Below, piece after piece: positions 5,812 through 22,860 of a DNA stretch of 34,384 nt. Made by a program: the position numbers and the translations under genes. The stretch comes from Halieaceae bacterium (GTDB lineage Bacteria > Pseudomonadota > Gammaproteobacteria > Pseudomonadales > Halieaceae). The DNA is taken from the NCBI GenBank assembly GCA_029247075.1, contig JAQWLX010000108.1, forward strand, positions 1 through 34,384. Direction: 5' to 3'. The notes below the pieces were generated by a model. That model was given only the letters and a program-made list of their open reading frames with translations, had not been told where the DNA came from and did not search any database. Position 1 is the stretch's first letter. The number at the start of each line of letters is the position of its first letter.

Positions 5812-7014
5812 ATGAACCTCACTCTCGATTTCAATGATCCTGATCTTATCGCCGATCCCTACCCTTTTTACGAAAAATTGCGTACTGAAAAGCCTGTCTT
5901 TAGAACAAATTTTGGAACTCAAAAAGTTATCGTGGTAAGTCGTTTTCCAGATGTTGCAAAAATACTAAATGATAAAGATACTCTCGTTAATAAACTCGGA
6001 ACCAACAAACCAGACCAATTTAGAAATAGCCCCGCTGGAATGCTTTGGCGAAATGCAATATCAAGGATGGATCCTCCAGAACATACTGACCTGAGACGAG
6101 CTGTAAGCAAACAATTTACTCTTAAGAATTTGAGTTTCTTGAAACCAAGTATCGAGAAAATAACCCAAAATGTCTTTAATGACTTAGACTCCACCAGAAT
6201 AGATGTCGTAGATGAAGTTGCTACGAAGATTCCTCTATTAGTTATCTGCAATTTACTTGGGATTCCTAAAGACGATTGGCAAAAGCTTCAAAAATCGACA
6301 GATCTATTTCTAAAAATATTTTTACCTGATCGCCTCTCTTGGGAAGAAGTGGAAGACGTCAATTCAGCAAGCCAGTATTTCATCGAATATTTCAGTGATC
6401 TTATAAAACATACTCAAAAAAACCCAGATTCGAATCTCACTTCAGACCTCATAAATGGCCCCCTAAGAGCCGGATCAGTTTCTATTGAACAGCTAATCGG
6501 TCTGTTGAGAGGACTTTTCACTGCTGGATTCGAGACTACTGCGGCTACTATTTCCGCAAGTTTTCTTGCCTTCTCCAAGCAAAAAGATCAATTTGAACAA
6601 ATGCGTTTTAAAGAAAGTACTATCCCGAACGCAGTTAACGAAATTCTCCGTTGGGAAACACCTGTTCAGGCCATGATTCGTTATGCCAGCAAAGATCTGA
6701 AATTGGGGAATTTTGCTGTGGGCACCGGCGAAGCCCTTCTGCTACTAACAGGATCTTCGAACCACGATCCTATGCGCTATCAAACACCCAATAAGATTAA
6801 TATATTTCGAGATTCAACAGACCACCATGCATTTGGAGGCGGGAGACACTATTGCTTAGGTTTTCATTTAGCGAAGTTAGAGATTGAAGCAGTATTGAGG
6901 GAGATGAGAAATAGATTCAGTGAGATAAATCTGGAGTGCGTTGAAATTCAAAGAAAACCAAATTTACAGTTCCGATCGATAACTACCCTGCCTGTGCGTC
7001 TGGTTGCCAAATAA
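5812..7014 (+). CDS. Cytochrome P450 monooxygenase
   Basis: 400 residues, the usual length of soluble bacterial P450s. Key motifs: I-helix AGFETT (about 238-243; acid-alcohol pair for O2 activation), K-helix ExxR (EILR, 277-280), and the heme-binding loop FGGGRHYCLG with the thiolate ligand Cys348. RMDPPEHTDLRR near 85-96 is the standard C-helix region. It hydroxylates an unactivated carbon using O2 and electrons from a ferredoxin/reductase pair. No ferredoxin or ferredoxin reductase gene is seen in the window, so its partner must be elsewhere. It starts 12 bp after the PQQ-ADH stop and ends 4 bp before the convergent aldehyde dehydrogenase gene. Context suggests hydroxylation of a hydrophobic substrate whose alcohol is then oxidised; this is inference. 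Confidence 0.95.
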   Translation: MNLTLDFNDPDLIADPYPFYEKLRTEKPVFRTNFGTQKVIVVSRFPDVAKILNDKDTLVNKLGTNKPDQFRNSPAGMLWRNAISRMDPPEHTDLRRAVSKQFTLKNLSFLKPSIEKITQNVFNDLDSTRIDVVDEVATKIPLLVICNLLGIPKDDWQKLQKSTDLFLKIFLPDRLSWEEVEDVNSASQYFIEYFSDLIKHTQKNPDSNLTSDLINGPLRAGSVSIEQLIGLLRGLFTAGFETTAATISASFLAFSKQKDQFEQMRFKESTIPNAVNEILRWETPVQAMIRYASKDLKLGNFAVGTGEALLLLTGSSNHDPMRYQTPNKINIFRDSTDHHAFGGGRHYCLGFHLAKLEIEAVLREMRNRFSEINLECVEIQRKPNLQFRSITTLPVRLVAK

Positions 7015-7018
7015 CTCA

Positions 7019-8488
7019 CTACGTCAAACTGATCCCGTCAGATTCCGAAGATTGTTTAAAACCAATCAGTGATTTAGTCTCCAAATATTCTTCTAATCCT
7101 GCGACACCCCATTCTCTGCCATTGCCAGAATGCTTGAACCCTCCAAGAGGCGCCATAGGATCAATATCCGCGCCATTTATAAATACGCTACCCGTTCTAA
7201 GACGACGCGCTATAGAGATCGCATGAGTACGATCATCTGCATAAACATAGCCTGACAAACCGTAATTGCTATCGTTAGCAATCCTAATCGCATCCTCTTC
7301 ATGACTATAGGGAAGAATACAAAGCACGGGGCCGAATATTTCTTGCCGAGCAATCTCCATATTATTTTTTACATCTGAAAAAATCGTGGGCTTAACAAAA
7401 TAGCCCTTCGCCAAATCTTCTGGTCGGCCAATGCCTCCGCAAATCAATACCGCTCCTTCACTTATCCCGGTCTGAATCATCTTTTGCACTTTGTTGAATT
7501 GATTTTTATTTGCCAATGGACCTAATGTCACATTTTCTTCATTCGGATGGCCGATAACTGCTGAACCCGCAACAGAGGCAGCAATTTTCTCGGCTTCTTC
7601 CATTCGAGACTGTGGGACTAATAGTCTAGTGGGTGCAGCACATGATTGACCGGAGTTGACCATTAACAACGTAGTGCACAGCTCTACACCTTCTTCAAAT
7701 TTCGGGTCGTCTAGCAAAATATTCGCTGACTTTCCTCCAAGCTCAGTAGTTACTCGTTTAACGGTCGAAGCCGCCCTTCTCGAGATTTCAGCCCCCGCGC
7801 GAGTGCTGCCAGTAAATGAGATCATATCAACGTCGGGGTGACACGAAAGCGCTGTACCGGTTAGTTCGCCATCGCCATGCACCAAGTTGAATACACCTGC
7901 GGGGACCTCTGCTGCATCAAAAACTTCCGCTAAGATTAACGCAGATAATGGGCTCAGCTCGCTTGGCTTCCATACAACCGTACATCCAGCCGCAATAGCC
8001 GGAAATACCTTACAAGCGATTTGGTTAATCGGCCAATTCCATGGAGTGATCAAGCCACAAACCCCAATCGGTTCTTTAACGATACAAGTAGTACTTTGAA
8101 TAGTTTCAAAAGTATAATTCTTGAGAATTGAGATCGCTGTCTCAATGTGAATTGTTCCAGTCGCAGCCTGAACTCCTCTAGAAAGAGCAGTGGGGACACC
8201 CATTTCCAGCGTCATTGATTCAACAATATCATCGTAACGATTAGAATATTCTTTGGCTAACCTCTCCAAGATAGTCAACCGTTCTTGCACCGTGCTCTTT
8301 CCAAATCTGTCAAAAGCAGTTCGTGCAGCACTAACCGCCCGATTAATATCATCAGCATTTCCAACAACTACTGATCCAATCTTTTCCTCAGTGGCAGGGT
8401 TGATTATAGGAACCGTAGACGTAGATTGAGGACGCACCCAAACCCCATCCACATAAAAACGATCACAGTCATTCATCTCAAATTCCAT
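7019..8488 (-). CDS. NAD(P)-dependent aldehyde dehydrogenase
   Basis: 489 residues, full length for the ALDH superfamily. Motifs: PWNWP (149-153), FTGSTRAG (225-232, cofactor-binding turn), ELGGKS with general base Glu249, SGQSCAAPTR with catalytic Cys283, and EIFGPVL near residue 395. It oxidises an aldehyde to a carboxylic acid in the cytoplasm. It is the last gene of a five-gene minus-strand operon, with only 3 bp between the EthD-like gene stop and this ATG (8488); an internal ATG at codon 5 is an alternative start. It could finish oxidation of the product of the LLM monooxygenase or amidase in the operon, or serve the convergent PQQ-ADH/P450 pair. Specificity cannot be read. Confidence 0.94.
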   Translation of the reverse strand: MEFEMNDCDRFYVDGVWVRPQSTSTVPIINPATEEKIGSVVVGNADDINRAVSAARTAFDRFGKSTVQERLTILERLAKEYSNRYDDIVESMTLEMGVPTALSRGVQAATGTIHIETAISILKNYTFETIQSTTCIVKEPIGVCGLITPWNWPINQIACKVFPAIAAGCTVVWKPSELSPLSALILAEVFDAAEVPAGVFNLVHGDGELTGTALSCHPDVDMISFTGSTRAGAEISRRAASTVKRVTTELGGKSANILLDDPKFEEGVELCTTLLMVNSGQSCAAPTRLLVPQSRMEEAEKIAASVAGSAVIGHPNEENVTLGPLANKNQFNKVQKMIQTGISEGAVLICGGIGRPEDLAKGYFVKPTIFSDVKNNMEIARQEIFGPVLCILPYSHEEDAIRIANDSNYGLSGYVYADDRTHAISIARRLRTGSVFINGADIDPMAPLGGFKHSGNGREWGVAGLEEYLETKSLIGFKQSSESDGISLT

Positions 8489-8491
8489 AAG

Positions 8492-9202
8492 CTATTTTGT
8501 CCATGTGTGCGGATTTAGAAGTGTCGCGTTGAGACACGCAATATTGCTTTTTTTGTTTGAAACAATCTCATGCAGTTCTGCGCTAGGTTCACTTGAAGAG
8601 GGAGCGTCGGAAAATAATATTTTTGCCGTCTCAAGATTACTCCACTCTGCAAGCAGGATCCATTCTGGCTGAGATGACGGAAAAAGAGGATGCTTACCTG
8701 ATTGCTTAGCCAAGCGAAGGCTGATCAGGCCACCATCAGGCTGATTTTTCAATTCGAAATAATCAGCAACAAACTGTTTTAATAGTTTTTCATCGGAACT
8801 CGTCAAATCAAAACATGTCGTCGAAATCACTGGTGAGTTAACTGCAGTTCTCCGACTGGGGCTAACCGAGCGACCACCAACTCCTTCGATCACAAACCCT
8901 TCCGTTGCCACCTGCTGATAAGTCGTATTGGAATGATTGCTGATTTTGTTTAAGACCTCATTTACCAACTGAGAGTCATTTTTTCTCACATCGATATAAG
9001 CATCGGAGGACAAAATTTCTACACTTGGAATTTCGTAAACATTGCAGATGAATGGTTCTCCAACAACAGAATGATAGGCATTGCAGCTAAAAAAACCGGT
9101 TCCGATTAAATCAGGCCCATGCCGGGTGTCATACCATTTAACAAATTCTGTCAAATATTCTCTTTCTACGTCCATTCTCACCACGTACAACAACGGTAAC
9201 AT
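8492..9202 (-). CDS. Two-domain EthD-like / dimeric alpha-beta barrel protein, function unknown
   Basis: About 236 residues. The N-terminal half (LLYVVRMDVE, then FVKWYDTRHGPDLIGTGFF and the CNAYH/CNVYEIP strands) has the strand-helix-strand look of dimeric alpha-beta barrel (EthD/antibiotic monooxygenase-type) proteins, including a W-Y-x-x-R-H-x-x-D segment. The second half (TCFDLTSSDEKLLKQFVADY, then QPEWILLAEW) looks like a degenerate repeat of the same fold. I chose the ATG at 9202 because GGGGGAA lies just before it; a TTG at 9223 would add seven residues that include that ribosome-binding sequence. It is fourth in the amidase/LLM/ALDH operon. EthD-like proteins are often accessory proteins in oxidative catabolism, and no catalytic residues can be named. 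The fold call is a pattern judgement. Confidence 0.6.
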   Translation of the reverse strand: MLPLLYVVRMDVEREYLTEFVKWYDTRHGPDLIGTGFFSCNAYHSVVGEPFICNVYEIPSVEILSSDAYIDVRKNDSQLVNEVLNKISNHSNTTYQQVATEGFVIEGVGGRSVSPSRRTAVNSPVISTTCFDLTSSDEKLLKQFVADYFELKNQPDGGLISLRLAKQSGKHPLFPSSQPEWILLAEWSNLETAKILFSDAPSSSEPSAELHEIVSNKKSNIACLNATLLNPHTWTK

Positions 9203-9231
9203 AACGTTTTCCCCCGGTAGCAATACTTAAC

Positions 9232-10161
9232 TTAGCTGGTTGGCAATTTAATCGACTCTTTGGAATATCCCAGAGCAGCCCCAAAATCCCCTGCAGACAC
9301 CATCCCTGGTGACGCATTTGTGAGCAACAAAAGTGCTTCCCCTCTCTTTTCATGAAATTCTTCTAGAGTCTCACCTGTTCCGGGACAAATCAAAGAAGCA
9401 ACTAAACCGCTCGTAATATTAGTCCCAACTTTGTCAGTAGCATAAGAAGAAACTAACATTCCTGTTGCAGAAGGTTGATACAATGAAACATCACCCTCAA
9501 TTAACGGAATCGATTGTGGGCCGGTCATTTTACCGGTCAACTGTCCTCTATACTTTAGAACATTCAAACAGCCGCTAACCCCGACTGCAGGATCTGACAG
9601 AGCACCTCCTCCGAATTCAACCAACATAGAACTACCTCCTGAATCAACTACAGCTTTTGAGAGTTGGCCAGGTTGGGCAAAATTTGTAACCACTGGGGTA
9701 TAACCAAAAGATGACGAAAATTCCAGATTCCCATAATCATAGGTATACCACAGCGCCATGGATGGTGTTCCAGAATGCAGGTCTACCACATGGTCTGCCT
9801 CATTCATTACAGTGTTCAGTACTGCATTTGCGATTTGGTTTGTTATAAATCCGGAATCCATTCCTGGAAATACCCTATTCAAATACAAGTGGTCTGGGCT
9901 CACCCTGGTACCAACTTCTAGCGCATACGGATTGGCTGCAGGGCATAAGATTACTCTACCGCACAAAGCAGATTCATTTGAAAGAACTTCTGCTAGCTGC
10001 CAAAGCGCAAGCGTAGCCAGAGGTTTATCGCCAAATATCCCACCCACAAAAGCAGTAGAAGGCCCAGGAGATCTCCCCTCCACAATCAAAAACCGTATCT
10101 GCCAAGGCATTCCGTCCGCTCGGCAACCGACGCTTATGTCATGCGACTTGACCTCAGGCAT
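9232..10161 (-). CDS. AstE/AspA-like (succinylglutamate desuccinylase/aspartoacylase) protein with degenerate zinc site
   Basis: 309 residues with the M14-like deacylase pattern: VGGIFGDKPLA (40-49), CPAANPYALEVGTR, LYLNRVFPG (92-100), VVDLHSG (His129) and MLVEFGGG (Glu182, position of the general base). In active family members the first motif is HGxE and supplies two zinc ligands. Here it reads F43-G-D-K46, so His and Glu are replaced by Phe and Lys while the third ligand and general base remain. It may be inactive as a zinc amidohydrolase, have a different role, or bind metal differently. The ATG overlaps the end of the LLM gene by 8 bp, so translation is probably coupled. It belongs to the operon led by the amidase. 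Confidence 0.75.
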   Translation of the reverse strand: MPEVKSHDISVGCRADGMPWQIRFLIVEGRSPGPSTAFVGGIFGDKPLATLALWQLAEVLSNESALCGRVILCPAANPYALEVGTRVSPDHLYLNRVFPGMDSGFITNQIANAVLNTVMNEADHVVDLHSGTPSMALWYTYDYGNLEFSSSFGYTPVVTNFAQPGQLSKAVVDSGGSSMLVEFGGGALSDPAVGVSGCLNVLKYRGQLTGKMTGPQSIPLIEGDVSLYQPSATGMLVSSYATDKVGTNITSGLVASLICPGTGETLEEFHEKRGEALLLLTNASPGMVSAGDFGAALGYSKESIKLPTS

Positions 10162-11176
10162 CTAAAAACTCCGGGATTACATCTTGGCCTACCTGTCGAA
10201 TCGCATCTAACGTTGCATTAATATCCGGCCCTTGGAAATGACGCATTCTCACCATCATTTCCTCTGGCTGTAAGGTTTCTACCCATTCACCTATTTGATC
10301 AATCCATGTGGCAGAAGAGCCACATAGCACCCGATCCGGCAGGACATGATCAAGCTCCAGGGCGGATGAACTACTCACATCTTTTAGCCATGGGTCATAA
10401 TCTACGTGATACGCATTTCCTCTATCAAAATATACCCGAGAATATCCTAGAACATGAGGACCATATACCCCTCTAGCAGCTTGGTCCGTGTGATCTATCC
10501 AAGCTTCCCTAAAAAGCACTATCCTAGGAGTTTTTCCCAATAAATTACATTCTTCTCGGTATACATCTGCCAGATGACTAACCCATTTTCCACTCCGTAT
10601 CGGATCTGTTATCCAACCGTCGGCTGTCCGAGCAGCACGACGCACACCCGGCACCGACCAAGCTCCGATAAAAACTTCCAGATTATCCGGACCGAGAGCC
10701 GGATCTCTTGGAGGCACCTTGCCTGCCCAGGGTTCTGGGATTTCCATCTCCTGACCTGCTCTGTGAGCTGCGATAACATCCATTCCTATGTCCATTCTCA
10801 CCTTGCGTTCCCTGAGAGAGACGCCAAAAGGATCGAAATCTCCTTGGAAGTAACCCACTCCGACAGTTAATCTGAATCTATTAGGAAACATCGCCTCAAT
10901 CAAACTCGCATCCTCCGCAACTCTTACAGGATGCTGGGTGGGCAATACTGTCACGGAAGTTCCGAATTTCATTTTTTGTGTACGAGATAGCCCCAAAATG
11001 CATGGGATAAATGCATTGGTAGTATAGCTAGTGTCTCCGAGATGCTTTTCTCCTGAATAAGCTCCAGAAAATCCACTTTCTTCGGCGACCTGACATTCGG
11101 ACAAAAATCCTGGAATATCTAGAATCCTTTCCCCCTCTACTAGCTTCTGTACCGCCGGTGCTATGCTAAATTTCAT
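10154..11176 (-). CDS. LLM-class flavin-dependent oxidoreductase (luciferase-like monooxygenase)
   Basis: About 340 residues from the ATG at 11176, preceded by AGAGGAT at a good distance; an in-frame ATG at 11197 would overlap the upstream amidase stop. The bacterial luciferase fold is seen in AEESGFSGAYSGEKHLGD (helix 1 region), LGLSRTQKMKFGTSVTVLPTQHPVRVAED (strand with the PxxxxxxD segment), NRFRLTVGVGYFQGDF and the C-terminal ARTADGWITDP. Such enzymes use reduced FMN or F420 to oxidise C-H, C-N or C-S bonds. Second gene of the operon, 11 bp after the amidase and overlapping the next gene by 8 bp. Together with an amidase and an ALDH it suggests oxidative breakdown of a nitrogen- or carbonyl-containing compound; the substrate is unknown. 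Confidence 0.9.
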   Translation of the reverse strand: MKFSIAPAVQKLVEGERILDIPGFLSECQVAEESGFSGAYSGEKHLGDTSYTTNAFIPCILGLSRTQKMKFGTSVTVLPTQHPVRVAEDASLIEAMFPNRFRLTVGVGYFQGDFDPFGVSLRERKVRMDIGMDVIAAHRAGQEMEIPEPWAGKVPPRDPALGPDNLEVFIGAWSVPGVRRAARTADGWITDPIRSGKWVSHLADVYREECNLLGKTPRIVLFREAWIDHTDQAARGVYGPHVLGYSRVYFDRGNAYHVDYDPWLKDVSSSSALELDHVLPDRVLCGSSATWIDQIGEWVETLQPEEMMVRMRHFQGPDINATLDAIRQVGQDVIPEFLDA

Positions 11177-11187
11177 AAATTCATCCT

Positions 11188-12624
11188 CTAAACACAAGTT
11201 GCTGGCTTAATATCTTTCCATGGCCTGGCCCCCTCTAACTGGGCCGCTAATGAAAAAAGAAGATCGTCTCTGCCATAGCCCGACATAAGTTGGACACCAA
11301 TCGGAATCTTGTTTTCATTCCACCAAAGGGGGACTGACATTGAAGGAATGCCAGCTTGGTTGGATATAGCTGTAAATGGTATGAATTCAAAAACTGCTTT
11401 TAGATAAGAATCGACATCACTAGAATTTGTATCTAATGTCCCTATTGCTGGTGGAGGTGTAGCGGTGACGGGAGATAGCAACATATCGTAGTTGAGAAAA
11501 AAATCTCCCACATCCCTCCCGGCTTTATGCATCACCCAAATTGCCCGCGCCAAGTCCGCCGCAGTTCGATCATGGCCAATTTTTGCCAAGAATCTGATCA
11601 CAGGCTCTATCTCTTTATCTGTTGGTTCTCTACCCACCTGATCGCTGTATGAATCAATTGTTGCTTGAACATTAGCTGCAATAATCACAGTGTAAGCAGC
11701 GCCAACGCTTGCGGAGTCGTATTCTGGAACAGCCTCTTCCACGCTATGACCAAGGTCCTTCAAAAGTTCGATAGCGCTATCAAGTGCACTAGTGCAGTCA
11801 GGGTGGACTAGTGCTCCATTCAAGGCTTCTCTCTGGACCGCTATTCTCAATTTTGTGGGTGGAATACTTAGTTGCTCTAAAAACGAACGTCCAAAGCTTG
11901 GTCCACTATAGGGATCGCCAACCGCTCTGCCACAACCCACATCCAGGAGGACAGCACTGTCTCTCACACTAATTGTTAAAGCATGCTCGCTACTCAATCC
12001 ATTCCATGCCTCACCCAGATCAGGACCACAGGGCATCACACCTCTTGACGGTTTAAAGCCAAACACTCCGCAGCAAGAAGCAGGAATACGAATAGAACCT
12101 CCTCCATCTGAACCATGGGCCGCAGGAACAATTCGACTCGCTACAGCGGCTGAAGCGCCTCCACTAGATCCACCCGCACTCAAATCCAAATCCCATGGAT
12201 TCCTAGTTGCTCCGAATAGGGCTCCCTCGGTACTTGGGCAGCAAGCGAACTCAGGCGTATTAGTTTTTCCAAAGATCACCAATCCGGCTTTCTTATATCG
12301 GGAAACCAGTTCTGAATCACGAACAGGAGTATTGCTGGACATAAATCTGCTACCGGATGTAGTTGGCACTCCAGCATAGGATGCTCTTATATCCTTTAAC
12401 AAAAATGGCACACCAGCGAGCGGACCATCTAATACCTCTGTTGCAATAGTTTCTCTGGCATGATCATACATTTTGAGTACTACAGCATTAATCGAGGGAT
12501 TAATTTCTTCCACCGCAGAAATTGCTGCTTCCAGTAACTCTTTCGGCGAAACCTGTTTCTTCTGCACAAGCTCTGCCAAACCTATTGCGTCGAAATCACT
12601 ATACTCTTTCACTGTAATCACCAC
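11188..12624 (-). CDS. Amidase signature family amidase
   Basis: 478 residues with the full amidase signature. The Ser-cisSer-Lys triad is visible: Lys77 in PFLLKDIRA, cis-Ser153 in AGGSSGGAS and nucleophile Ser177 in SDGGGSIRIPA; the 24-residue spacing between the serines is typical. It hydrolyses a carboxamide to acid and amine or ammonia, normally in the cytoplasm, and no signal peptide is seen. The start is uncertain: GTG codons at 12624 and 12621 lie almost on top of the AGAGG ribosome-binding sequence, while the GTG at 12612 has better spacing. It leads a five-gene operon and is divergent from a TonB receptor gene, hinting that the receptor imports the operon's substrate. Confidence 0.93.
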   Translation of the reverse strand: MVITVKEYSDFDAIGLAELVQKKQVSPKELLEAAISAVEEINPSINAVVLKMYDHARETIATEVLDGPLAGVPFLLKDIRASYAGVPTTSGSRFMSSNTPVRDSELVSRYKKAGLVIFGKTNTPEFACCPSTEGALFGATRNPWDLDLSAGGSSGGASAAVASRIVPAAHGSDGGGSIRIPASCCGVFGFKPSRGVMPCGPDLGEAWNGLSSEHALTISVRDSAVLLDVGCGRAVGDPYSGPSFGRSFLEQLSIPPTKLRIAVQREALNGALVHPDCTSALDSAIELLKDLGHSVEEAVPEYDSASVGAAYTVIIAANVQATIDSYSDQVGREPTDKEIEPVIRFLAKIGHDRTAADLARAIWVMHKAGRDVGDFFLNYDMLLSPVTATPPPAIGTLDTNSSDVDSYLKAVFEFIPFTAISNQAGIPSMSVPLWWNENKIPIGVQLMSGYGRDDLLFSLAAQLEGARPWKDIKPATCV

Positions 12625-12804: not shown

Positions 12805-15186
12805 ATGAAGTACTTAACGCAGTTGGCTGGCTTTTTTTTATCCATAAATCTATTCCTAACGACCGGAATGGTCTATGCCCAGTTAGAAGAGGTCGTTGTG
12901 ACCGCGCAGAAGCGGAGTGAGTCTCTCCAGGATGTTGGTATATCTATATCAGCCTTTTCGGGTAGAGAGTTACTAGAAAGAGGTATTGATGACGTAACGA
13001 CTCTTGATGAAACGATACCAAATTTGCGAATTACAGATGGTCAGGGAAAAGGCGGGGCGGTACCTCGATTTTCCCTTCGTGGAGTTGGATTTCAGACGGA
13101 TCCAACAACTGTCTCCAGTTCGCCCGTGGCAATACACGTAAATGAAATACCCTACCCTTATCCGATAGTAGGATTAAATTACCTTTTTGATTTGGAACGT
13201 GTAGAGGTATTGAGAGGACCTCAAGGTGATTTGTTCGGACTAAATACAACTGGTGGAACCATTAATTTTATTACTGGTAGACCGACTGAAGAATTCGAAG
13301 CCTCTGTCACAATCGAAGCAGGACGCTTTGAACATACCAAGCTAGAAACGTATGTCAGTGGAGCTATATCCGATACTGTCCGTGGACGTCTCGCTTTTTC
13401 TCGTGATGAGCGAGGTGAGGGCTTTCAGACAAATAGTTTTACGGGTGCAAAACTTGGAGAGGCGGAACGATGGGGGTTGCGTGGCACGCTAGAAATCGAT
13501 TTGTCAGATGATGCAACAGCGCTTATTTCAGTACACCGCACTGAAAATGATTCAGACGCACTTGCTGCTCGACCATTGACTACAACTTGGGGCATAGGTT
13601 TTTGGCTACTGGGTGATCCAACCCAAGTGATTCCCGGGTCTACCGAGAGTCATTCCGTTGGCTGGGGGCCAGACGTTTTTAATCCAGATAGCGACCCATT
13701 CTATGATCGAAAAAGTACAGGTGTCTCGGTCAGACTCGATTGGGATTTAGGTGACATGACGCTTACTTCCGTAACCGGTTACGAAGACTTTGAGCGTTCT
13801 GACATGATTGACCCGGATGGATCAAATTTCAGTTACTTTAATTATCTTTATCAAAGTGACATCGAAGCCTGGTCAACTGAGCTAAGACTTGCATCCGATA
13901 CTGATGACCCAATTAACTGGCTTGTCGGTGCCAGTTATGCTGACGACACGACACATCAGTTGAGCGCCTTCGATGCGCGAGATGAAACCACTTATCCAGG
14001 CATCGGGATGCAAAACCCCACGCAAAAACGAGATGTATGGGCGATCTTCGGTCATCTAGAGTGGGAATTTGCTGATAAATGGACCCTGGTTACTGGCCTT
14101 CGATTTACTGATGAAACGCGAAGTCAGACTCAACAAGGTACCTTTCAGGCCGGAGATGGCTCGGGACTCGTTGCGGCAATTACAGGTTTCAAACCGGGAC
14201 CAACTCTTACGACACCAGGGGAGACACTCACGGGAGCCGTATTCGCTTGTTTCGTAACGGGTAACCCTGATGATTGCACGCCTGGACCACCGGGTGGGTA
14301 TTCCGATTCAATAACATACGATGATTTTTCTGGCAAGATCGGCTTGAACTATCAAGCGAGCGATGAGTGGATGCTTTATGCGAGCTTGTCCAGAGGATTC
14401 AAGTCAGGTGGTTTCGCTGACAATGCTGCTTCTAATAGAGCAACCTTCGCGCCAAACAAGGCTGAGTATATAAATGCCCTGGAAATTGGCGCTAAAGGCG
14501 AATTCGATGATCGTTTGCGTTTTAATACCTCAATATTCTTCTATGATTATGAAGACCAACAAGTTGTGGATGCTATCGTGGATCCACAAATTGGTTCGAT
14601 TTTAGCAATTGTAAACGCTGACGAGTCGGAGGTTTATGGATTTGAAGTTGAAGCGCTGTGGGCTCCAGTTGAAGGCCTTAGTATTATTCAAAATATTGGA
14701 TATTCCCATGGGGAATTTACGACATTTAATGAAGTTGATAGCTTAGCCACAAGAGCCCAAGCATCGAACCCGGGTTGGGATGGCACATACCGACCAGTGT
14801 ACGTTGACTCTGCGGGAGAGGATATTGGTTTTCCCGAATGGCAGTACTATGGTGCATTCAGCTATCAGTGGCCGATCAGTCAGTTGGGGTCGGGTCTCGT
14901 TGGTAGAGCAACATTTGATTATTCCTACCAGAGTGAAACAAATCTTGGTGATACCTATGTTGGAGCTGTTGACCCAACTGAAACGGGTTCACTTGACGTT
15001 GATTCATACTGGATTGCCAACGTTAGATTATCTATCGCTCAGACGGATAGCTGGGAAATCACGCTATATGCTCAAAATGTTTTTGATGAAGAGTATGAGC
15101 AGTATAAAGAGGCCGTCAACTCTTCAAACATGGTTATCGATGGCATGCCAAGGGAGTGGGGTATCCGATTTACTAAGGATTTTTAG
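12805..15186 (+). CDS. TonB-dependent outer-membrane receptor
   Basis: 793 residues. Signal peptide residues 1-25 (cleavage after MVYA). A TonB-box-like LEEVVVTAQKR follows, then the plug domain (about 40-150, with ISAFSGREL, PNLRI, FSLRGVG, VEVLRGPQG and TGGTINF), and a long beta-barrel ending in the aromatic-terminal IRFTKDF, as required for outer-membrane insertion. It imports a scarce ligand across the outer membrane using TonB energy. The style (VVVTAQKRSESLQDV) is that of receptors common in oligotrophic gammaproteobacteria and sphingomonads that often sit next to catabolic operons. Strong AAGGAG 7 bp before the ATG. Divergent from the amidase operon, whose substrate is a plausible ligand (inference). 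Confidence 0.95.
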   Translation: MKYLTQLAGFFLSINLFLTTGMVYAQLEEVVVTAQKRSESLQDVGISISAFSGRELLERGIDDVTTLDETIPNLRITDGQGKGGAVPRFSLRGVGFQTDPTTVSSSPVAIHVNEIPYPYPIVGLNYLFDLERVEVLRGPQGDLFGLNTTGGTINFITGRPTEEFEASVTIEAGRFEHTKLETYVSGAISDTVRGRLAFSRDERGEGFQTNSFTGAKLGEAERWGLRGTLEIDLSDDATALISVHRTENDSDALAARPLTTTWGIGFWLLGDPTQVIPGSTESHSVGWGPDVFNPDSDPFYDRKSTGVSVRLDWDLGDMTLTSVTGYEDFERSDMIDPDGSNFSYFNYLYQSDIEAWSTELRLASDTDDPINWLVGASYADDTTHQLSAFDARDETTYPGIGMQNPTQKRDVWAIFGHLEWEFADKWTLVTGLRFTDETRSQTQQGTFQAGDGSGLVAAITGFKPGPTLTTPGETLTGAVFACFVTGNPDDCTPGPPGGYSDSITYDDFSGKIGLNYQASDEWMLYASLSRGFKSGGFADNAASNRATFAPNKAEYINALEIGAKGEFDDRLRFNTSIFFYDYEDQQVVDAIVDPQIGSILAIVNADESEVYGFEVEALWAPVEGLSIIQNIGYSHGEFTTFNEVDSLATRAQASNPGWDGTYRPVYVDSAGEDIGFPEWQYYGAFSYQWPISQLGSGLVGRATFDYSYQSETNLGDTYVGAVDPTETGSLDVDSYWIANVRLSIAQTDSWEITLYAQNVFDEEYEQYKEAVNSSNMVIDGMPREWGIRFTKDF

Positions 15187-15206: not shown

Positions 15207-15240
15207 GAAACCTAGTCTCTACCGCAGTGGGCTAGGTTTC
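15207..15240. terminator. Hairpin between convergent genes, likely bidirectional terminator
   Basis: GAAACCTAG (15207-15215) and CTAGGTTTC (15232-15240) form a perfect 9-bp stem; CTAC/GTGG in the loop can add four more pairs with one wobble. It follows the TonB receptor stop by about 20 bp and overlaps the stop codon of the convergent LLM pseudogene. There is no strong T-run on either side, only TTTC-type tails, so it may also act as an mRNA end stabiliser. Confidence 0.5.
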
Positions 15241-16271: not shown

Positions 16272-17888
16272 TTAATTCATAAGTTTTTCGCGGCCAAATC
16301 GAATATCGTGAGATTCTCTATCCCACGAGTCGGGAGTTGCACCCTCATTTCGGAGGACTACCTTCATAACTTTGGCGGAAGGCGTTTTCGGCAGCTCATC
16401 CAGTACTCTTATATACCTCGGGACCATGAAGTAAGCCATCCGTTCGCCAAGAAAATGTATCAACTCCTTGGGATCTATCTTAGATCCCTCGACGGGGGCA
16501 ACAGCAATCATAACTTCATCTTCCCCGACATCGCTTGGTACTGCATAGGCCGCTGCTTCCCTAACTGCTGGATATGAGACGACTTCCGCCTCTACTTCGA
16601 AGGAAGAAATATTCTCTCCGCGGCGACGAATAGCATCCTTCATTCTATCTACAAAATAATAGTATCCCGACTCATCTTTACGAAAACAATCTCCAGTATG
16701 GAACCATCCGTTGCGCCAAGCTTCAGCGGTAGCCTCGGCTTGTTTGTAGTAACCGCTATTCATTCCCCAAGGACGATCCGTCCTGACAATCATTTCTCCA
16801 ATCTCTCCCAACTCGACTTCGCAGTCATTTTCATCTACTAGCCTCACGTCTACACCTTCCCGAGCTTTCCCACATGTACCTCGCTTGGAGGGGTTTGGCG
16901 TTGAAACAATAGGTGATGATATTTCAGTCATATTGAAAATCGTGTAGACATCTATACCAAATCTCTGATGGAACTCCGAACTCGTCTCTGTGAGTGGAAC
17001 CATAAAGGCGACCCTTACACCGTGATTTTTGTCATCTTCGGACGGTTTTTGCTTTAACAGAAAAGTGGTCATGACACCCAATAGAAAAAATGCTGTTGTT
17101 TTGGTCTCACGAACGAAAGGCCAAAACTTCTCAGTATCAAAAGTATCCATCACCGCGATGGAGCCACCTCTGACCAACATAACAAACGTGATGCCCATAC
17201 CACCAATATGAAAAATTGGCATATTAATCAAAAACCGATCTTCGCCTGTTACAAAATGCCAAGTTTCCGGACCAGCGTTCGTAAAAATGTGTAGATAGGA
17301 AGATAGCACTCCCTTGGAGGGCCCTGTGGTTCCAGATGTATAGATTATGGATTGCGTATCCCAGGGCTCTATCGGTCGCACGAGTTCAGGAAGATCAGAC
17401 TTCGACTGGGCTAAAGTGTCGAAATTCACTATTGGCAAAACAGACTCAGATTTTTCGCCGACAGACACCAGCTTTTCTATAAGTGCCGTATTGGCTCCAG
17501 TCAGCCTAGATATCAACTGGCTGTGCAAAACGAGTACTCTCGCATCAGAATTATCCAAGACATGCTCTAGGAGCGCCCCTTTAAAGGCTGTATTGAAGGG
17601 CACGAAAACTCCTCCAATATAATTAATTGCGAAAAATGTGAGAATTGCCTCTTTACCGTCAAACATCCAGACAGCTACATGATCTCCTTGATTGACTCCT
17701 TCCTCAGCCAAACCCGATGCTAGTTGCACCACCTTTTCTTTTAATTCGGAATATGTCCATGTTTCATCATCCTCAAATACTGCGAACTCCTGATCGGGCT
17801 TTTCTTTAGCCCATCTATCGACAAGATATCTAGTTACGCACGTATCTCGAGAAGGGACTCTCGGGTCTCTCGTCGCTGCTCCATTCAT
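16272..17888 (-). CDS. AMP-forming acyl-CoA synthetase (CaiC-like ligase)
   Basis: 538 residues of the ANL superfamily. The nucleotide-binding P-loop is IIYTSGTTGPSKG (181-193); the A5-like FNMTEISSP, the hinge FVDRMKDAIRRRGENISSFEVE and the C-terminal catalytic lysine region TPSAKVMKVVLR are all present. It activates a carboxylic acid to its CoA thioester through an acyl-adenylate. The general style, with TWTYSELKEKV and GENISSFEVE, is close to crotonobetaine/carnitine-CoA ligase-like enzymes for short polar or branched acids. Its ATG overlaps the TetR stop codon by 4 bp (ATGA), so translation is coupled. Its position next to the divergent B12 mutase operon suggests it supplies the mutase substrate as a CoA ester, as ligases do in hydroxyisobutyrate pathways (inference). 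Confidence 0.92.
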   Translation of the reverse strand: MNGAATRDPRVPSRDTCVTRYLVDRWAKEKPDQEFAVFEDDETWTYSELKEKVVQLASGLAEEGVNQGDHVAVWMFDGKEAILTFFAINYIGGVFVPFNTAFKGALLEHVLDNSDARVLVLHSQLISRLTGANTALIEKLVSVGEKSESVLPIVNFDTLAQSKSDLPELVRPIEPWDTQSIIYTSGTTGPSKGVLSSYLHIFTNAGPETWHFVTGEDRFLINMPIFHIGGMGITFVMLVRGGSIAVMDTFDTEKFWPFVRETKTTAFFLLGVMTTFLLKQKPSEDDKNHGVRVAFMVPLTETSSEFHQRFGIDVYTIFNMTEISSPIVSTPNPSKRGTCGKAREGVDVRLVDENDCEVELGEIGEMIVRTDRPWGMNSGYYKQAEATAEAWRNGWFHTGDCFRKDESGYYYFVDRMKDAIRRRGENISSFEVEAEVVSYPAVREAAAYAVPSDVGEDEVMIAVAPVEGSKIDPKELIHFLGERMAYFMVPRYIRVLDELPKTPSAKVMKVVLRNEGATPDSWDRESHDIRFGREKLMN

Positions 17889-18565
17889 CCTATACCCCCA
17901 TCAATAGCTGTTATCTTAGCAACGTTTTTTTGGCGATGATCAACATATAGTAACGACAACACCATCTCCAATATGTGATTCGTAATATCCAAAGAGGTCC
18001 ACTTTCCACCAGGGATATACCAGAAAGAAACCCATGAAAGCACGCCACTGATTGTTTTAGCAGTGAGCCCAAGATCGTCGATAAAAAATTCGCCAGACTC
18101 AACACCTATCTCCAATAACTTTGACAGGCGATGATCAAACAAGCTGCGCTGCTGCCTTATAGATCGAGCTTCTGCGGAGTCTAGATTCTTTTCTTCACGG
18201 CCATAAACAACAATATATTCTTGATAGCCAATAACGATATCTGTGACTTCTGTTACTAACTGTATCAATTTATCTGAAGGACTCTCTTTCCCTCCGTCTA
18301 TGCGATCAAATGCCTCTAGAGACAAAGTTATTCCTGTCTGACAGATCTCATAGAGTAATTGACTCTTATTCTTGTAATAGCCATATATGAAGGGCTTCGT
18401 AACATCTAGTTGATCCGCTATCGCCTCAATAGTCGTCCTCTCATATCCCAATTCATAGAATAAGTGACACGCTTCTTCCTGGATGCGCTTCTTTTTAAAT
18501 TGAGATATTTCGTCCTTCAAACCCTTGGGTTCCATCGCTTTTTTCTGCATCGGCTGCTTTCTCAC
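17885..18565 (-). CDS. TetR/AcrR family transcriptional regulator
   Basis: 226 residues from GTG at 18565, 1 bp after the dehydrogenase stop; an ATG at 18550 is an alternative with AAGGTGAG upstream. The N-terminal TetR helix-turn-helix is clear: IQEEACHLFYELGYERTTIE, then AIADQLDVTKPFIYGYYKNK. The C-terminal ligand-binding domain is variable, and WVSFWYIPGG resembles TetR regulators of lipid/CoA metabolism. It lies inside the operon between the dehydrogenase and the ligase, so it probably autoregulates the operon and perhaps the divergent mutase operon. Candidate operators are the repeats at 19750-19827. The inducer is probably an acid or acyl-CoA of the pathway (inference). Confidence 0.93.
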   Translation of the reverse strand: MRKQPMQKKAMEPKGLKDEISQFKKKRIQEEACHLFYELGYERTTIEAIADQLDVTKPFIYGYYKNKSQLLYEICQTGITLSLEAFDRIDGGKESPSDKLIQLVTEVTDIVIGYQEYIVVYGREEKNLDSAEARSIRQQRSLFDHRLSKLLEIGVESGEFFIDDLGLTAKTISGVLSWVSFWYIPGGKWTSLDITNHILEMVLSLLYVDHRQKNVAKITAIDGGIG

Positions 18566-18566
18566 C

Positions 18567-19724
18567 TTAAATGGCTAAATCTAGAATTTTTCGCACATCT
18601 GACGAAGACTCGATCTTCTTAGGATTAGTTCTGGCCCAAAAATCCAGCATGGTATATTCCGCTATTTGGTCGAGTCTATCTTCTGTGACACCGACTTCTG
18701 ACAGGGAGCGAGGCATGCCAAGTTCAGAAATAAATTCATCTACTATTTTACTTGCATCTTCTCCTGGACGACCAAAGCAATCACTAATGCGTCGCTGTCG
18801 ATCGGCGTTAACCTCTCTGTTGTACTCGAGGACCGCTGGGGCCATCACGCACGAACAGTAACCATGTGGAACATCACAGGTACCCCCAAGGATATGACCA
18901 ATTGCATGGCTAGCCCCCATCGGCACACCACCTATAATAGGAATCATTGACTGCCATGCTCCAATCTGACACCGCAGGCGCGAATTCATATCATCGGGCG
19001 ATTTGTGAACTATTGGCAACGCATCGCTTAGAAGCCTTAACGCGCTCTCGGCTATACCATCACTAAAATGGTCTGATGATAGAGAGCCTAAAGTCTCTAG
19101 AGCATGGTCAACGGACCTCACACCTGTTGAAGTCCAAAGCCAAGCAGGAGTATGTCTCGTTAATTCGGGATCCAGTATTACGGCAACAGGGGCCATCATG
19201 GGGTGCTCAAATCCCTGTTTGTGACCAATCTTCTCATCAGTCGCACCCGCTAAGGGATTAAATTCTCCTCCTGATAATGTTGTTGGACAGCAAATTACCC
19301 TTAAATCAGGACTCTCAAACGCCGGCTTTATAGTCTCACCGGCCTCATTAACATAAACATGGAAAGGCTCTAAATCATCATGTTCCACCAAGCCATGCTT
19401 TAAAACTAAGGGAATTATTTTTCCAGCGTCTGTTACAGAACCACCGCCAATAGTAACAATAAGGTCTGCTTCGCTAGATCGAGCATTGGCAGCAGCCTCC
19501 AAAACAGAAGATCTAGGAGCGTGCGGCGGAATACCGTCATGAACACAAACCACTCGGTCCCCCAGTGCTTTGCAAACTCTCTCTATTTCGTCAGTAGTCT
19601 TTAAAAGGGTACTGCTCACGAGTAAAAAGATACGGGATGAACCAAGTTGATCGACTTCATGTACTAATGCCTCTGAAAGTCGTTCACCGAGATGAACCCG
19701 CTCTGTCGTTGTTAGCTGAAACAC
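18567..19724 (-). CDS. Iron-containing-type alcohol dehydrogenase, maleylacetate reductase-like subgroup
   Basis: 385 residues with the group III dehydrogenase fold: GGGSVTDAGK (93-102, NAD(P) binding), CPTTLSGGEFNPLAGATDE (146-164), and the metal region TGVRSVDHALE (200-210), SHAIGH (272-277) and VPHGYC (285-290). In classical Fe-ADHs the metal Asp sits four residues before the His (GxDALxH); here that place is Arg with an Asp directly before the His, as I recall for maleylacetate reductase-like enzymes. Cytoplasmic NAD(P)H-linked oxidation of a hydroxy- or reduction of an oxo-compound is expected. The start is GTG at 19724, with GAG upstream. First gene of the operon with TetR and ligase; the divergent mutase operon starts 132 bp away. 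Confidence 0.88.
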   Translation of the reverse strand: MFQLTTTERVHLGERLSEALVHEVDQLGSSRIFLLVSSTLLKTTDEIERVCKALGDRVVCVHDGIPPHAPRSSVLEAAANARSSEADLIVTIGGGSVTDAGKIIPLVLKHGLVEHDDLEPFHVYVNEAGETIKPAFESPDLRVICCPTTLSGGEFNPLAGATDEKIGHKQGFEHPMMAPVAVILDPELTRHTPAWLWTSTGVRSVDHALETLGSLSSDHFSDGIAESALRLLSDALPIVHKSPDDMNSRLRCQIGAWQSMIPIIGGVPMGASHAIGHILGGTCDVPHGYCSCVMAPAVLEYNREVNADRQRRISDCFGRPGEDASKIVDEFISELGMPRSLSEVGVTEDRLDQIAEYTMLDFWARTNPKKIESSSDVRKILDLAI

Positions 19725-19856: not shown

Positions 19857-21485
19857 ATGAAAAAATCAGAATCTGAGCAAATTAGATCTGCCTCAGGTAT
19901 TGAACTTAAAACATTCTATACCAAGGACGATATACCTAAAGCTCACGAACCCTATATTAACACATCGCCTGGAGAAGCTCCCTACCATCGCGGTTTTCAC
20001 AAAAAGGGTTATAGAACAAAACCGTGGCGAATTTTCCAACTAAGTGGATTTGGAAAACCTGAAGATGAAAACGAAAGAATTAAATTTCTTCTAAAAAATG
20101 GAGAAACCGGTTTTATAATGGAGCATGATCGTAATACAGCTGATCATTGCTATAACGTCGATCATCCACAGGTATTAGCTCGCCGTGAGGACGTAGGATT
20201 AACTGGCGCAGTAATGCAAAGCGTTCGTGATACAGCGATCTGCCTGGAAGGTTTACCCATTGAGACAAGTTTTGGACACGCTGGTGGTGCAGTAGTGCAA
20301 CATGCTCCTTTCGCACTTGCATCATATTGGACTGTTGCAAAAAAATTAGGGTACCAACTGAGTAAATTAGCGGGTACTGGTCAAAGCGACTTCAATCTCA
20401 CATATCTGGGATGCATCACTAAACAGCAGATTCCCACAAAAGCCGGGCTACGTTTCAATACTGATATCATCGAATTCTGTGGGAAGGAAATGCCAAATTG
20501 GGTACCTGTTTCTATTGCCGGTTATAATGGAGCCGATTCAGGCCTTACACCAGATCAGGAACTAGGATCCTTATTCGCAAATGCCATTGAATATCTTGAC
20601 GAAGTTCAAAGGCGGCAAAGTATTCCATTAGAAGTGGCTGCTAAAGGATGTGCCGGTGTGAGCTTTAGAGCGTCTATTCATATTTTTGAGGAGGCTGCGA
20701 AGATGCGCGCCGCGCGGCTAATGTGGAGTCAACTTCTAAAAGAACGTTACAACATAACTGAACCAAAAATTGCGAATTTACGTATCCATTGCGTTACCGC
20801 TGGATCAAAAATGACTTATCAGCAACCTTTGAATAATATTGTTCGGGGAACTCTTATGGGATTAGCCGCTGTATTAGGAGGCGTGCAGTCATTAGGAGTA
20901 TCAGGTTATGACGAAGCCCTATCAATCCCATCGGAGCACGCCCATCAAATGTCCGTCCGAATTCAACAAATCTTGCAAGAAGAAACTCAATTAGCTGCAG
21001 TAACAGATCCTTTGGGAGGCTCTTACTATACAGAAGCTCTCACAGGACTGCTTGTCGAGAAAGCTTGGACATTTTTTGAAGAAATTCAAGATCAGGGAGG
21101 ATATCTTGCATGTCTAGATAATGGCTGGCTGCATGCAAAAGCAGCAGAAAATCAGCATTTGGAATTCATGGAGATGGAGCACGGTAAACAGCAACTTGTT
21201 GGTGTCACATGTGCGGAGGAGGATGCATCGCCTTTTCAAATTGATGGTTTCATGGGTACAGATGATGCTTTTGATGTCGCCCTGGAAAGACTAAATACAG
21301 TGAAGAGGGAGCGTCATGAGCGGGGAGCCTCTGCTAGCCTAAAGGCATTGGAAAAAGCCTGCCGCGGAGAAGATAACATTATGCCTCCAATCATGGATGC
21401 AGTCGCTGCTGAAGCCACACTTGGTGAAATAGGTGATGTATATCGGGAAGTCTTTGGCGACTGGAATATTCCGATACAATTTTAG
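19857..21485 (+). CDS. Divergent B12-dependent acyl-CoA mutase, large (catalytic) subunit
   Basis: 542 residues with the TIM-barrel domain of the methylmalonyl-CoA mutase family but no B12 domain, as in split mutases (ICM, 2-hydroxyisobutyryl-CoA mutase). Recognisable blocks: KPWRIFQLSGFGKPEDENER, KNGETGF, GHAGGAVV, KLAGTGQSD, SIAGYNGADSG, AAKMRAARLMW, NNIVRGTLMGL, AVLGGVQSL, GYDEALSIPSE and TDPLGGSYY. Pocket positions, aligned from memory to P. shermanii MCM: Tyr89 is Leu62; Ala116 is Glu89 (Asp117 in hydroxyisobutyryl mutase); Arg207 is Cys186; His244 is Asn224; Glu370 is kept (Glu353). Loss of Tyr89 and Arg207 argues against methylmalonyl-CoA. The nearest archetype by eye is the hydroxyisobutyryl mutase. 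It would rearrange an acyl-CoA carbon skeleton by radical chemistry in the cytoplasm. First gene of an operon with the small subunit and MeaB. Confidence 0.9.
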   Translation: MKKSESEQIRSASGIELKTFYTKDDIPKAHEPYINTSPGEAPYHRGFHKKGYRTKPWRIFQLSGFGKPEDENERIKFLLKNGETGFIMEHDRNTADHCYNVDHPQVLARREDVGLTGAVMQSVRDTAICLEGLPIETSFGHAGGAVVQHAPFALASYWTVAKKLGYQLSKLAGTGQSDFNLTYLGCITKQQIPTKAGLRFNTDIIEFCGKEMPNWVPVSIAGYNGADSGLTPDQELGSLFANAIEYLDEVQRRQSIPLEVAAKGCAGVSFRASIHIFEEAAKMRAARLMWSQLLKERYNITEPKIANLRIHCVTAGSKMTYQQPLNNIVRGTLMGLAAVLGGVQSLGVSGYDEALSIPSEHAHQMSVRIQQILQEETQLAAVTDPLGGSYYTEALTGLLVEKAWTFFEEIQDQGGYLACLDNGWLHAKAAENQHLEFMEMEHGKQQLVGVTCAEEDASPFQIDGFMGTDDAFDVALERLNTVKRERHERGASASLKALEKACRGEDNIMPPIMDAVAAEATLGEIGDVYREVFGDWNIPIQF

Positions 21486-21496
21486 GGACTACCAAG

Positions 21497-21901
21497 ATGG
21501 AGCATAAACGAATATTAATGGCAAAAACCGGTCTCGATGGACATTGGCGAGGACCTACGATAGTCGCTAGAGCGCTTCGAGATGCCGGCTACGAGGTAAT
21601 AATGATTGGCATGGCAACAAGTGATGAGATTGTCAGAGCCTGTATCGACGAAGATGTTGATCTTGTCGGGCTGAATATTGGAGGCCACATAAAAGTAGCA
21701 TTGAGAGCAATTGAAGCGATAAAACTCGAAAGACCAGACCTTCCAATATTTGCTGGTGGAACGATTACGCCAGCATCGGCTAGACAACTTGAGTCGCTTG
21801 GAATAGAAGTATATCCGCCCGGATCACAACTAGCAGACATTGTCGTCGCTGCCGGTAGATTAATTAACTCTGACTCCTTCTCGCAGGCGGGAGAAGATTG
21901 A
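21497..21901 (+). CDS. B12-binding small subunit of the acyl-CoA mutase
   Basis: 134 residues, a stand-alone cobalamin-binding Rossmann domain, about the size of HcmB/IcmB small subunits. The base-off/His-on signature is KTGLDGHWRG: Lys10, Asp14 and His16 match the Lys-Asp-His set of methylmalonyl-CoA mutase, and His16 is the lower cobalt ligand. GLNIGGH and FAGGTITP line the nucleotide-tail cleft. It pairs with the large subunit 11 bp upstream to form the active heterotetrameric enzyme. Its stop overlaps the TTG start of the MeaB-like gene by 4 bp. Because the B12-binding residues are intact, the odd catalytic subunit is probably part of a working adenosylcobalamin enzyme rather than a relic. 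Confidence 0.95.
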   Translation: MEHKRILMAKTGLDGHWRGPTIVARALRDAGYEVIMIGMATSDEIVRACIDEDVDLVGLNIGGHIKVALRAIEAIKLERPDLPIFAGGTITPASARQLESLGIEVYPPGSQLADIVVAAGRLINSDSFSQAGED

Positions 21902-22860
21902 ACTCAAAAAACTCGGATCTTTTGTCGAGAGCGATTAAAGGCGAACGAGGAGCCCTTGCTCGTCTGCTAAGCATTTCTGAAAATGACATTTCTGCATCAG
22001 CCGAGATTGAGCTAAGCCTCCTTAACTCATTGGGAGTTGCGAAGATTGTCGGTGTAACCGGTCCACCTGGTGCGGGAAAATCAAGTGTAATCGCCCAGCT
22101 ACTTAATCATACCAAGGAGGAATTTGACAAGACCGCCGTTATCGCCGTTGATCCAAGCTCTCCTTTTACCAAAGGAGCCCTGCTTGGCGATAGAGTAAGA
22201 ATGGAAATAGTTGATCGAAGTAAATCGATCTTCATCCGCTCCATGGCATCTCGCGGGAATCACGGCGGCTTGGCTAGAAGCACTACCTCCGCTATCACTT
22301 TATTCGACGGTTGCGGATGGCCATTAATAATCGTGGAGACACTTGGGATTGGCCAAATTGAGCTCGATATAGCGAGCATCGCCGATGTCACTGTGGTCGT
22401 ACTTACACCAGGCTGGGGAGACAACTTCCAAGCCAACAAGGCAGGTCTTACTGAGTCTGGAGATATCTATGTCGTCAACAAAAGTGATCGGCCGGGAGCA
22501 GCAAAAACCAGAATAGAATTAGAGGAGTCACTTAGCCTCCTCCCGCACTCTTCAACTTCCATTCCTGTATTGGAAACTATAGCGACTAAGTCTTCTGGAA
22601 TTGATGATCTTTGGAAAAACATAATGGAGAAATGTGAAACATCTGAATCAAACACCTCTGCTAAGAAATATTCTCGCCGCTCACAATTAATTCATCGTCT
22701 TCTGAAAATTAGGGTTGATGAAGCTGTAAACGATTGCATTCAAGGGTTATATACAGAATTCACCGATGAGAGACAAAATATACCTTTTGAGGAGGCTAAT
22801 GCTTCTCTAAATCGCCTTGTGGCAGATGTTGCAGAGAAGTTAAAACCAAAGAAAACATAA
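21898..22860 (+). CDS. MeaB/ArgK-type G3E GTPase, mutase chaperone
   Basis: 320 residues. Walker A GPPGAGKS (55-62); VDPSSPFTKGALLGDRVRM (84-102), diagnostic of MeaB; SMASRGNHGGLARST; switch region ETLGIGQIELD; and base-recognition NKSD (194-197). MeaB-type proteins gate cofactor loading and protect and repair B12-dependent acyl-CoA mutases. The start is TTG at 21898, overlapping the small-subunit stop (TTGA), with GGGAGAAGA just upstream; no better ATG is near, and translation is likely coupled. A dedicated MeaB in the mutase operon matches the meaH arrangement reported for 2-hydroxyisobutyryl-CoA mutase clusters. The last part (about 255-320) is the dimerisation arm. Confidence 0.93.
   Translation: MNSKNSDLLSRAIKGERGALARLLSISENDISASAEIELSLLNSLGVAKIVGVTGPPGAGKSSVIAQLLNHTKEEFDKTAVIAVDPSSPFTKGALLGDRVRMEIVDRSKSIFIRSMASRGNHGGLARSTTSAITLFDGCGWPLIIVETLGIGQIELDIASIADVTVVVLTPGWGDNFQANKAGLTESGDIYVVNKSDRPGAAKTRIELEESLSLLPHSSTSIPVLETIATKSSGIDDLWKNIMEKCETSESNTSAKKYSRRSQLIHRLLKIRVDEAVNDCIQGLYTEFTDERQNIPFEEANASLNRLVADVAEKLKPKKT

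Follow-up and report, generated by a model that had tools for sequence, protein, structure and literature searches.

A putative discrete subfamily of AdoCbl-dependent acyl-CoA mutases with an unusual pocket in Halieaceae and other bacteria

The window, that is, the whole stretch of 34,384 nucleotides analysed from a Halieaceae bacterium, contains a two-subunit acyl-CoA mutase of the adenosylcobalamin (AdoCbl)-dependent kind, flanked by genes for CoA activation, oxidation, regulation and amide hydrolysis (Table 1). The positions that an earlier note had given to the mutase, its partner and the chaperone were borne out by scores above the cut-offs of TIGR00641, TIGR00640 and TIGR00750. The large-subunit reading frame is intact and scored 451 bits against PF01642 and 369 bits against the superfamily profile TIGR00641 (cut-off 304), while the small subunit reached 90 bits (cut-off 57). 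It is the sole PF01642 match in its own genome, which is 70.8% complete. Against plasmid records, tblastn with the mutase returned 426 records, all below 60% identity (best listed 36.2%), and an Rfam scan of the window gave no matches at the gathering threshold.

Table 1. Features around the mutase genes in the window.
Feature	Coordinates	Strand	Evidence and remarks
Cytochrome P450 adjoining the amide module	5812..7014	+	PF00067; 38% homologues in L206 and L218 modules
Aldehyde dehydrogenase (ALDH)	7019..8488	-	PF00171; 38% homologue near mutase in L127
243-aa protein, no Pfam family	8492..9223	-	only sub-threshold DUF4286 match
AstE/AspA-type deacylase	9232..10161	-	PF24827
Luciferase-like (flavin or F420) oxidoreductase	10154..11197	-	PF00296
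Amidase-signature amidase	11188..12624	-	PF01425; 57% in L206, 49% in L127
TonB-dependent receptor	12805..15186	+	profile match
AMP-forming acyl-CoA ligase	16272..17888	-	PF00501; NCBIfam PRK06155 484 bits, cut-off 722
TetR regulator (TetR_C_24)	17885..18565	-	Pfam profile
Iron-type alcohol dehydrogenase (Fe-ADH), divergent from mutase	18567..19724	-	PF00465/PF25137
AdoCbl acyl-CoA mutase large (substrate-binding) subunit	19857..21485	+	542 aa, TIM barrel; PF01642, TIGR00641
B12-binding small subunit	21497..21901	+	134 aa, motif LDGHWRG; PF02310, TIGR00640
MeaB-type G-protein chaperone	21898..22860	+	TIGR00750 254 bits, cut-off 241

An AlphaFold2 model of the large subunit, computed from 45 family rows (mean pLDDT 86.9), matched 4r3u (Z 41.6, rmsd 2.4, 497 aligned) and 4req (Z 41.0, rmsd 2.2, 494 aligned), and the two fold matches to this predicted structure are tied. 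Residues 62, 89 and 224 are found at the ends of the predicted barrel strands 58-63, 85-88 and 215-221 or slightly beyond them and thus have the location expected of pocket residues.

A scan of GTDB contigs yielded 92 relatives, 80 of which were fetched, with 46-82% identity to the focal mutase; a single odd or decaying copy is ruled out by these 80 homologous loci. Among them are Halieaceae (Luminiphilus, Haliea including Haliea alexandrii, Pseudohaliea rubra and Kineobactrum sediminis), gamma proteobacterium NOR5-3, Steroidobacteraceae, Alphaproteobacteria, Acidimicrobiia including Acidithrix ferrooxidans, a Ktedonobacterales bin and others. These names are the depositors' titles, mostly of metagenome-assembled genomes, and some are doubtful (Klebsiella pneumoniae for L085, Janthinobacterium lividum for L094); some loci also duplicate genes of the genomes searched (L059 is in G001, L082 in G014). 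With the own genome counted, the family was found in 6 of 58 whole genomes of relatives and in 3 of 369 genomes of the class. In the phylum to which G425 belongs, the matches listed place it in 1 of 297 genomes, namely G425, the genome of L137; in that of G426 (Acidithrix), they place it in 2 of 296, one of them being G426. The non-family mutases among the matches listed in the genome searches had at most 39% identity, against at least 46% within the family. At first look, genomes G508 and G645 each showed 32 candidate stretches.

In a careful tree of 61 rows, the 20 family rows formed a single clade (support 100/100) on a stem of 1.17 changes per site. The MCM, HCM, PCM-like, IcmF and ECM-like groups were each recovered at 100/100, with the family outside all of them; the PCM-like group comprised three rows and the ECM-like group only two sequences, and we assume that the labels PCM-like, IcmF and ECM-like, given from locus tags or domain layout, are right. 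The partial loci L129, L138 and L100 were excluded from the trees. The neighbour of the family varied: FastTree joined the PCM-like rows, L152 and L156 to it at 1.0 and grouped those rows together at only 0.13; the careful tree placed L151 beside it at 82/80; and a tree with added Asn-type rows put three of these next to it at only 70. The sister group is unsettled across these three trees, and PCM as sister is unproven, its placement by FastTree having been lost in the careful tree. Relative to the five groups in the careful tree, the suggestion of a new subfamily is supported by a clade of its own and by the identity gap (46% against at most 39% in the listed matches). As far as the sequences can be compared, the enzyme is of a known kind, the subfamily is discrete and conserved, and its pocket is unusual.

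The pocket had been described from four residues of the window protein, Leu62, Glu89, Cys186 and Asn224. Residue counts were made over the 80 family loci, three of which are partial but cover these positions. Leu62 and Asn224 are present in 80/80, Cys186 in 79/80 and Glu89 in 74/80, with Lys in the other six, and the combination occurs in none of 105 non-family mutases. These 105 sequences comprise sets of 76 and 29, the former including near-duplicates (such as L024/L058 and 4r3u/L140). Alignments with MCM or HCM agree on the equivalence of Leu62, Glu89 and Asn224 to MCM Tyr89, Ala116 and His244. The equivalence of Cys186 to Arg207 was found in three alignments (as Arg207 or Gln208); in two others, however, Cys186 falls on the preceding residue, and in one it falls at a gap, with Thr188 taking the place of Gln208. 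The loop around Cys186 has one extra residue. In no register does the window protein have Arg or Gln in the Arg207 column, the residue being Cys, Ile or Thr. A non-family mutase, L175, also carries Cys in the 186 column.

The Asn residue proved less special than the earlier note had proposed. His244 had been called near-universal, which fits one sample (71/76) but not the other (only 18/29, with 11 Asn). Asn at this position occurs in 1/76 and 11/29 other mutases, several branching near the family, and these Asn244-type enzymes outside the family refute the uniqueness of Asn224. The eleven (L175-L177, L181-L182, L196-L198, L201, L203 and L205) all resemble the focal enzymes in having neither Arg nor Gln in the 207 column. 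They differ from them in having at most 39% identity among the matches listed, in lacking Arg58, Phe60 and Glu89, and in keeping Gln330. A quick 50-row tree has a branch (SH-aLRT 99) that parts 29 rows from the family together with eight of the ten Asn-type rows; the Asn-bearing L181, L182 and L152 fall among the 29. Another type of mutase (L141, L143 and L149) has Val/Glu/Val/Gln in the four pocket columns.

Arg58 and Phe60 set the family apart more clearly than do the four residues first named. Altered CoA-binding positions had been noted and were confirmed: Arg58 (MCM Thr85) and Phe60 (MCM Arg87) are each found in 80/80 family loci, compared with 1/105 and 0/105 non-family mutases, and Lys55 (MCM Arg82) in 69/80. 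The sole non-family sequence with Arg at the Arg58 position is L151, which lies about 22 kb from L152, with its Asn at His244, on one contig (G177:C137); the two are strongly divergent mutases. Further conserved residues are His90 (78/80), Arg92 (79/80; 0/105 in non-family mutases), His141 (75/80, Lys in five), Lys189 (74/80), Val313 (MCM Gln330; 75/80) and Ser349 (MCM Asn366; 75/79). At least 79 of the family loci covering them retain the equivalents of Gln197, Tyr243, His328 and Glu370.

Comparison with known mutases begins with HcmAB (4r3u; Methylibium, Xanthobacter), the nearest solved structure by sequence. The two systems share the two-subunit architecture, the fold, the B12-binding partner, an acid at the Ala116 position and a cluster with ligase and MeaB genes. 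If the focal enzyme were a further version of 2-hydroxyisobutyryl-CoA mutase (HCM or Rcm activity), Leu/Glu would bind the tertiary hydroxyl in place of Ile/Asp, and this co-occurrence of ligase, mutase and MeaB would be expected. We nevertheless regard such an activity as unlikely. Identity to the Methylibium protein is 33%, the pocket reads Leu/Glu/Cys/Asn rather than Ile/Asp/Gln/His, and Arg58 and Phe60 occur only in the focal enzyme. The residues Ile90/Asp117/Gln208, seen in 4r3u and Methylibium and taken by us to set 2-hydroxyisobutyryl specificity, are absent, and the focal mutase lies outside the HCM clade, each clade having 100/100. The gene surroundings diverge as well: by BLASTP, the window ligase does not meaningfully resemble the AMP-binding protein encoded in the hcm cluster of Methylibium (E 0.02), the regulator is TetR here and GntR there, and the fetched hcm cluster has no Fe-ADH. 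Clade, ligase and residues rule out an identity with HcmA itself. An oxygenated substrate, as the earlier note proposed, is possible by analogy with the Ile/Asp pair of HCM; an amine or amide also fits Glu89 and part of the gene context. RcmAB of Kyrpidia is reported to be related to HcmAB only distantly (PMC7176365); PMC11599936, PMC10481361, PMC7888143 and PMC13188929 were also consulted.

With MCM (1req, 2xiq, 6oxc), the focal enzyme shares the fold, the cofactor motif and a MeaB partner. An ordinary MCM is ruled out by residues and clade: Tyr89 and Arg207, presumably the determinants of methylmalonyl specificity, are replaced along with His244, Gln330 and Asn366, the B12 domain is a separate chain, and the protein lies outside the MCM clade. 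Its score against the MCM equivalog NF006944 is 334 bits versus 876, a deficit due in part to the missing fused B12 domain. A canonical MCM is encoded as a separate gene in G001, G011, G014, G015 and G044, with Tyr89, Ala116, the Arg207 motif and His244. The protein is likewise no IcmF, as its chains are separate, NF045497 gives 123 bits against 1500, and the pocket is not Phe/Gln, the pair that we assume to confer isobutyryl specificity. In the 61-row tree, the focal clade is separate from the two sequences labelled ECM-like. Xaut_5043/5044, the PCM-like pair that we take to be pivalyl-CoA mutase, has two subunits, MeaB, TetR and ligases nearby, and Leu at the Tyr89 position. It differs in its 31% identity, in its Leu/Leu/Asn/His pocket and in showing no firm grouping with the focal clade; the PCM-like group (100/100) stands apart from the focal group in the careful tree.

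The earlier note had further proposed a substrate with no second carboxylate, which is not established. Arg207 is gone, but with several new conserved basic residues (Arg58, His90, Arg92, His141 and Lys189) its loss still leaves room for a second carboxylate. In place of Arg207, one of these five might hold an acyl-CoA that is larger or has a second carboxylate, such as an alkylsuccinyl-CoA. Their conservation in 74 to 80 of 80 loci is in keeping with this, as is the branching of some Asn244-sharing mutases near the family. However, Glu89 would oppose a nearby carboxylate, the basic residues are only assumed to face the pocket, and no alkylsuccinate gene was recognised by eye in seven Asn-type neighbourhoods; we thus consider a substrate of this kind rather improbable.

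The genes around the mutase recur across the family. Neighbours were counted with tblastn at E 1e-12 and a minimum seed coverage of 40%, and many of the 80 loci are cut by contig ends. At high-GC loci, heuristic gene calls recovered 73/80 mutases; neighbour lists read by eye are rough, and the counts come from tblastn. The small subunit was found at 77/80 loci, the ligase at 67 (48 with at least 45% identity), Fe-ADH at 50 (48 at that level), MeaB at 48 (30), TetR at 47 (44), the TonB-dependent receptor at 40 (37), an enoyl-CoA hydratase at 40 (34), a P450 at 27 (23), an acyl-CoA dehydrogenase at 20, an SfnG/RutA-like flavin monooxygenase at 18 (all 18) and a metallo-beta-lactamase-like lactonase at 17. 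In the window, a 155-aa ORF at 15239-15706 is similar to the C-terminal portion of this SfnG/RutA-like monooxygenase (L059 1599-2642, G001, same genus; 59%) and looks truncated. The best NCBIfam match of Fe-ADH, 4-hydroxybutyrate dehydrogenase, scored 149 bits, far below its cut-off of 500, and the nearest solved structures of the ligase, Fe-ADH and the L059 monooxygenase were generic matches only.

As a control, five genomes holding both paralogues were compared. The MCMs of these genomes are encoded in frames of 720-791 codons and have Tyr89, Ala116 and His244, with Arg207 in an MVRNTY motif. The ligase, Fe-ADH and small subunit were found at 5/5 focal and 0/5 MCM loci and TetR at 4/5 and 0/5, while the MCM loci had only distant MeaB homologues (31-35%). 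Thus, the ligase association belongs to the focal paralogue, and the ligase of the window probably makes the CoA thioester for the mutase. The TonB-dependent receptor is a possible uptake route.

The replacement of His244, Gln330, Asn366 and Arg87 in nearly all family members, at positions that presumably face adenosyl or CoA, is what one would see if the protein were no longer a mutase or if its cobalamin served another reaction. We judge this very unlikely, as the family is strongly conserved across several phyla, the small subunits keep the DxHxxG B12 motif in all 77 found among the 80 loci, MeaB and ligase are linked, and one or more of the four residues are missing from other, uncharacterised subfamilies as well. 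The motif, the recurring gene set and the intact frame likewise support the view that the enzyme would be functional, as had been argued from the partner subunit.

Gene context offers the strongest clue to the role of the mutase, and besides the recurring ligase, Fe-ADH, TetR and MeaB it includes an amide module at 7019-12624, which sits 7-13 kb upstream of the mutase. In three other loci (L118 and L121, titled Acidimicrobiia, and L119, titled only 'bacterium'), homologues of its genes lie on the mutase strand, upstream of the focal mutase: the 243-aa protein (54-57%) at 2.7 kb, the luciferase-like protein (70%) at about 2 kb and the deacylase (61-62%) at about 1 kb, the distances ranging from 0.9 to 2.7 kb. 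Near the mutase of L127 (Ilumatobacteraceae) are homologues of the amidase, the deacylase (42%), the 243-aa protein (37%) and ALDH, and near that of L206 are the amidase, the luciferase-like protein (42%), the deacylase (43%) and the P450. The 243-aa protein was matched in 2/97 relatives, namely its own genome and G044, and tblastn of it against plasmids gave no match. G044 carries the module as a separate operon, in the order TonB receptor, amidase (63%), luciferase-like (65%), deacylase (58%), 243-aa protein (49%) and P450 (38%), and its focal mutase is on a different contig. In L218, hydantoinase A and B genes lie close by (best NCBIfam match caprolactamase alpha, 527 bits, below its cut-off of 1000), and L206 has hydantoinase A domains. 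The module thus also adjoins the mutase in distant (actinobacterial) relatives, and these arrangements tie at least some members of the family to compounds of the amide or lactam type. The link may hold for a part only because two or more module genes (at least 37% identity) were near only 5/81 focal loci (flanks of at most 10 kb) and many gammaproteobacterial loci have other oxygenases: in the 33 loci L059-L090 and L134, 18 have another monooxygenase and 20 another P450.

Position 89 offers a further view of the substrate. The six Lys89 members are L122, L125-L128 and L131, five of which also have Lys at 141. In L125 (12100-15189), a sulfoacetaldehyde acetyltransferase (TIGR03457, 783 bits, cut-off 676) directly follows the small subunit and is itself followed by an aminotransferase; L126 and L131 have the same aminotransferase cluster at the same distance. 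The genome of L125 holds both a Lys89 and a Glu89 copy, the second focal copy being L206 (G431:C184), with different neighbours. This pattern in the sequences suggests that residue 89 may face the variable part of the substrate. It is conceivable, if highly speculative, that position 89 sorts the family by substituent charge, with Glu89 enzymes acting on amino-substituted branched acyl-CoAs (2-aminoisobutyryl-CoA to 3-aminobutyryl-CoA type, from cyclic-amide breakdown) and Lys89 enzymes on anionic, possibly sulfonated ones.

Taken together, we find it likely that 19857-21901 encodes an AdoCbl-dependent acyl-CoA mutase of a distinct subfamily that would convert a branched acyl-CoA to a form ready for beta-oxidation, as part of a dedicated catabolic gene set. 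Counting against this are the changes His244 to Asn, Gln330 to Val, Asn366 to Ser and Arg87 to Phe, and the own genome (70.8% complete) has no match to the adenosyltransferase families PF02572 or PF01923. Family membership, fold, unbroken motifs, a separate clade, the fixed residues of the pocket and the recurrence of neighbouring genes are observed here; activity and its direction are inferred. In the proposed route, the CoA ligase would form the acyl-CoA thioester, and homolysis of AdoCbl would yield a substrate radical. By the mechanism expected of the family, the acyl-CoA carbonyl would then shift between adjacent carbons, with MeaB guarding the cofactor. A branched (alpha-substituted) acyl-CoA would thereby take a form accepted by beta-oxidation, and dehydrogenases, hydratase and thiolase would complete the breakdown. 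Only tentatively can the substrate be pictured as a short, branched acyl-CoA whose polar group would face Glu89 and which would arise when the amidase, deacylase and monooxygenase module opens a compound of the amide or lactam type.

To our knowledge, AdoCbl-dependent acyl-CoA mutases provide one of the few routes by which bacteria straighten branched carbon skeletons, and few classes of substrate are known for them. A limited search of the open-access literature found no description of this subfamily. The fixed, odd pocket and the recurring genes in Halieaceae, Steroidobacteraceae, Alphaproteobacteria and Acidimicrobiia point to a catabolic pathway for which no description was found, and the records titled as strains (Haliea alexandrii, Kineobactrum sediminis, Pseudohaliea rubra, NOR5-3 and Acidithrix ferrooxidans) could allow it to be tested.
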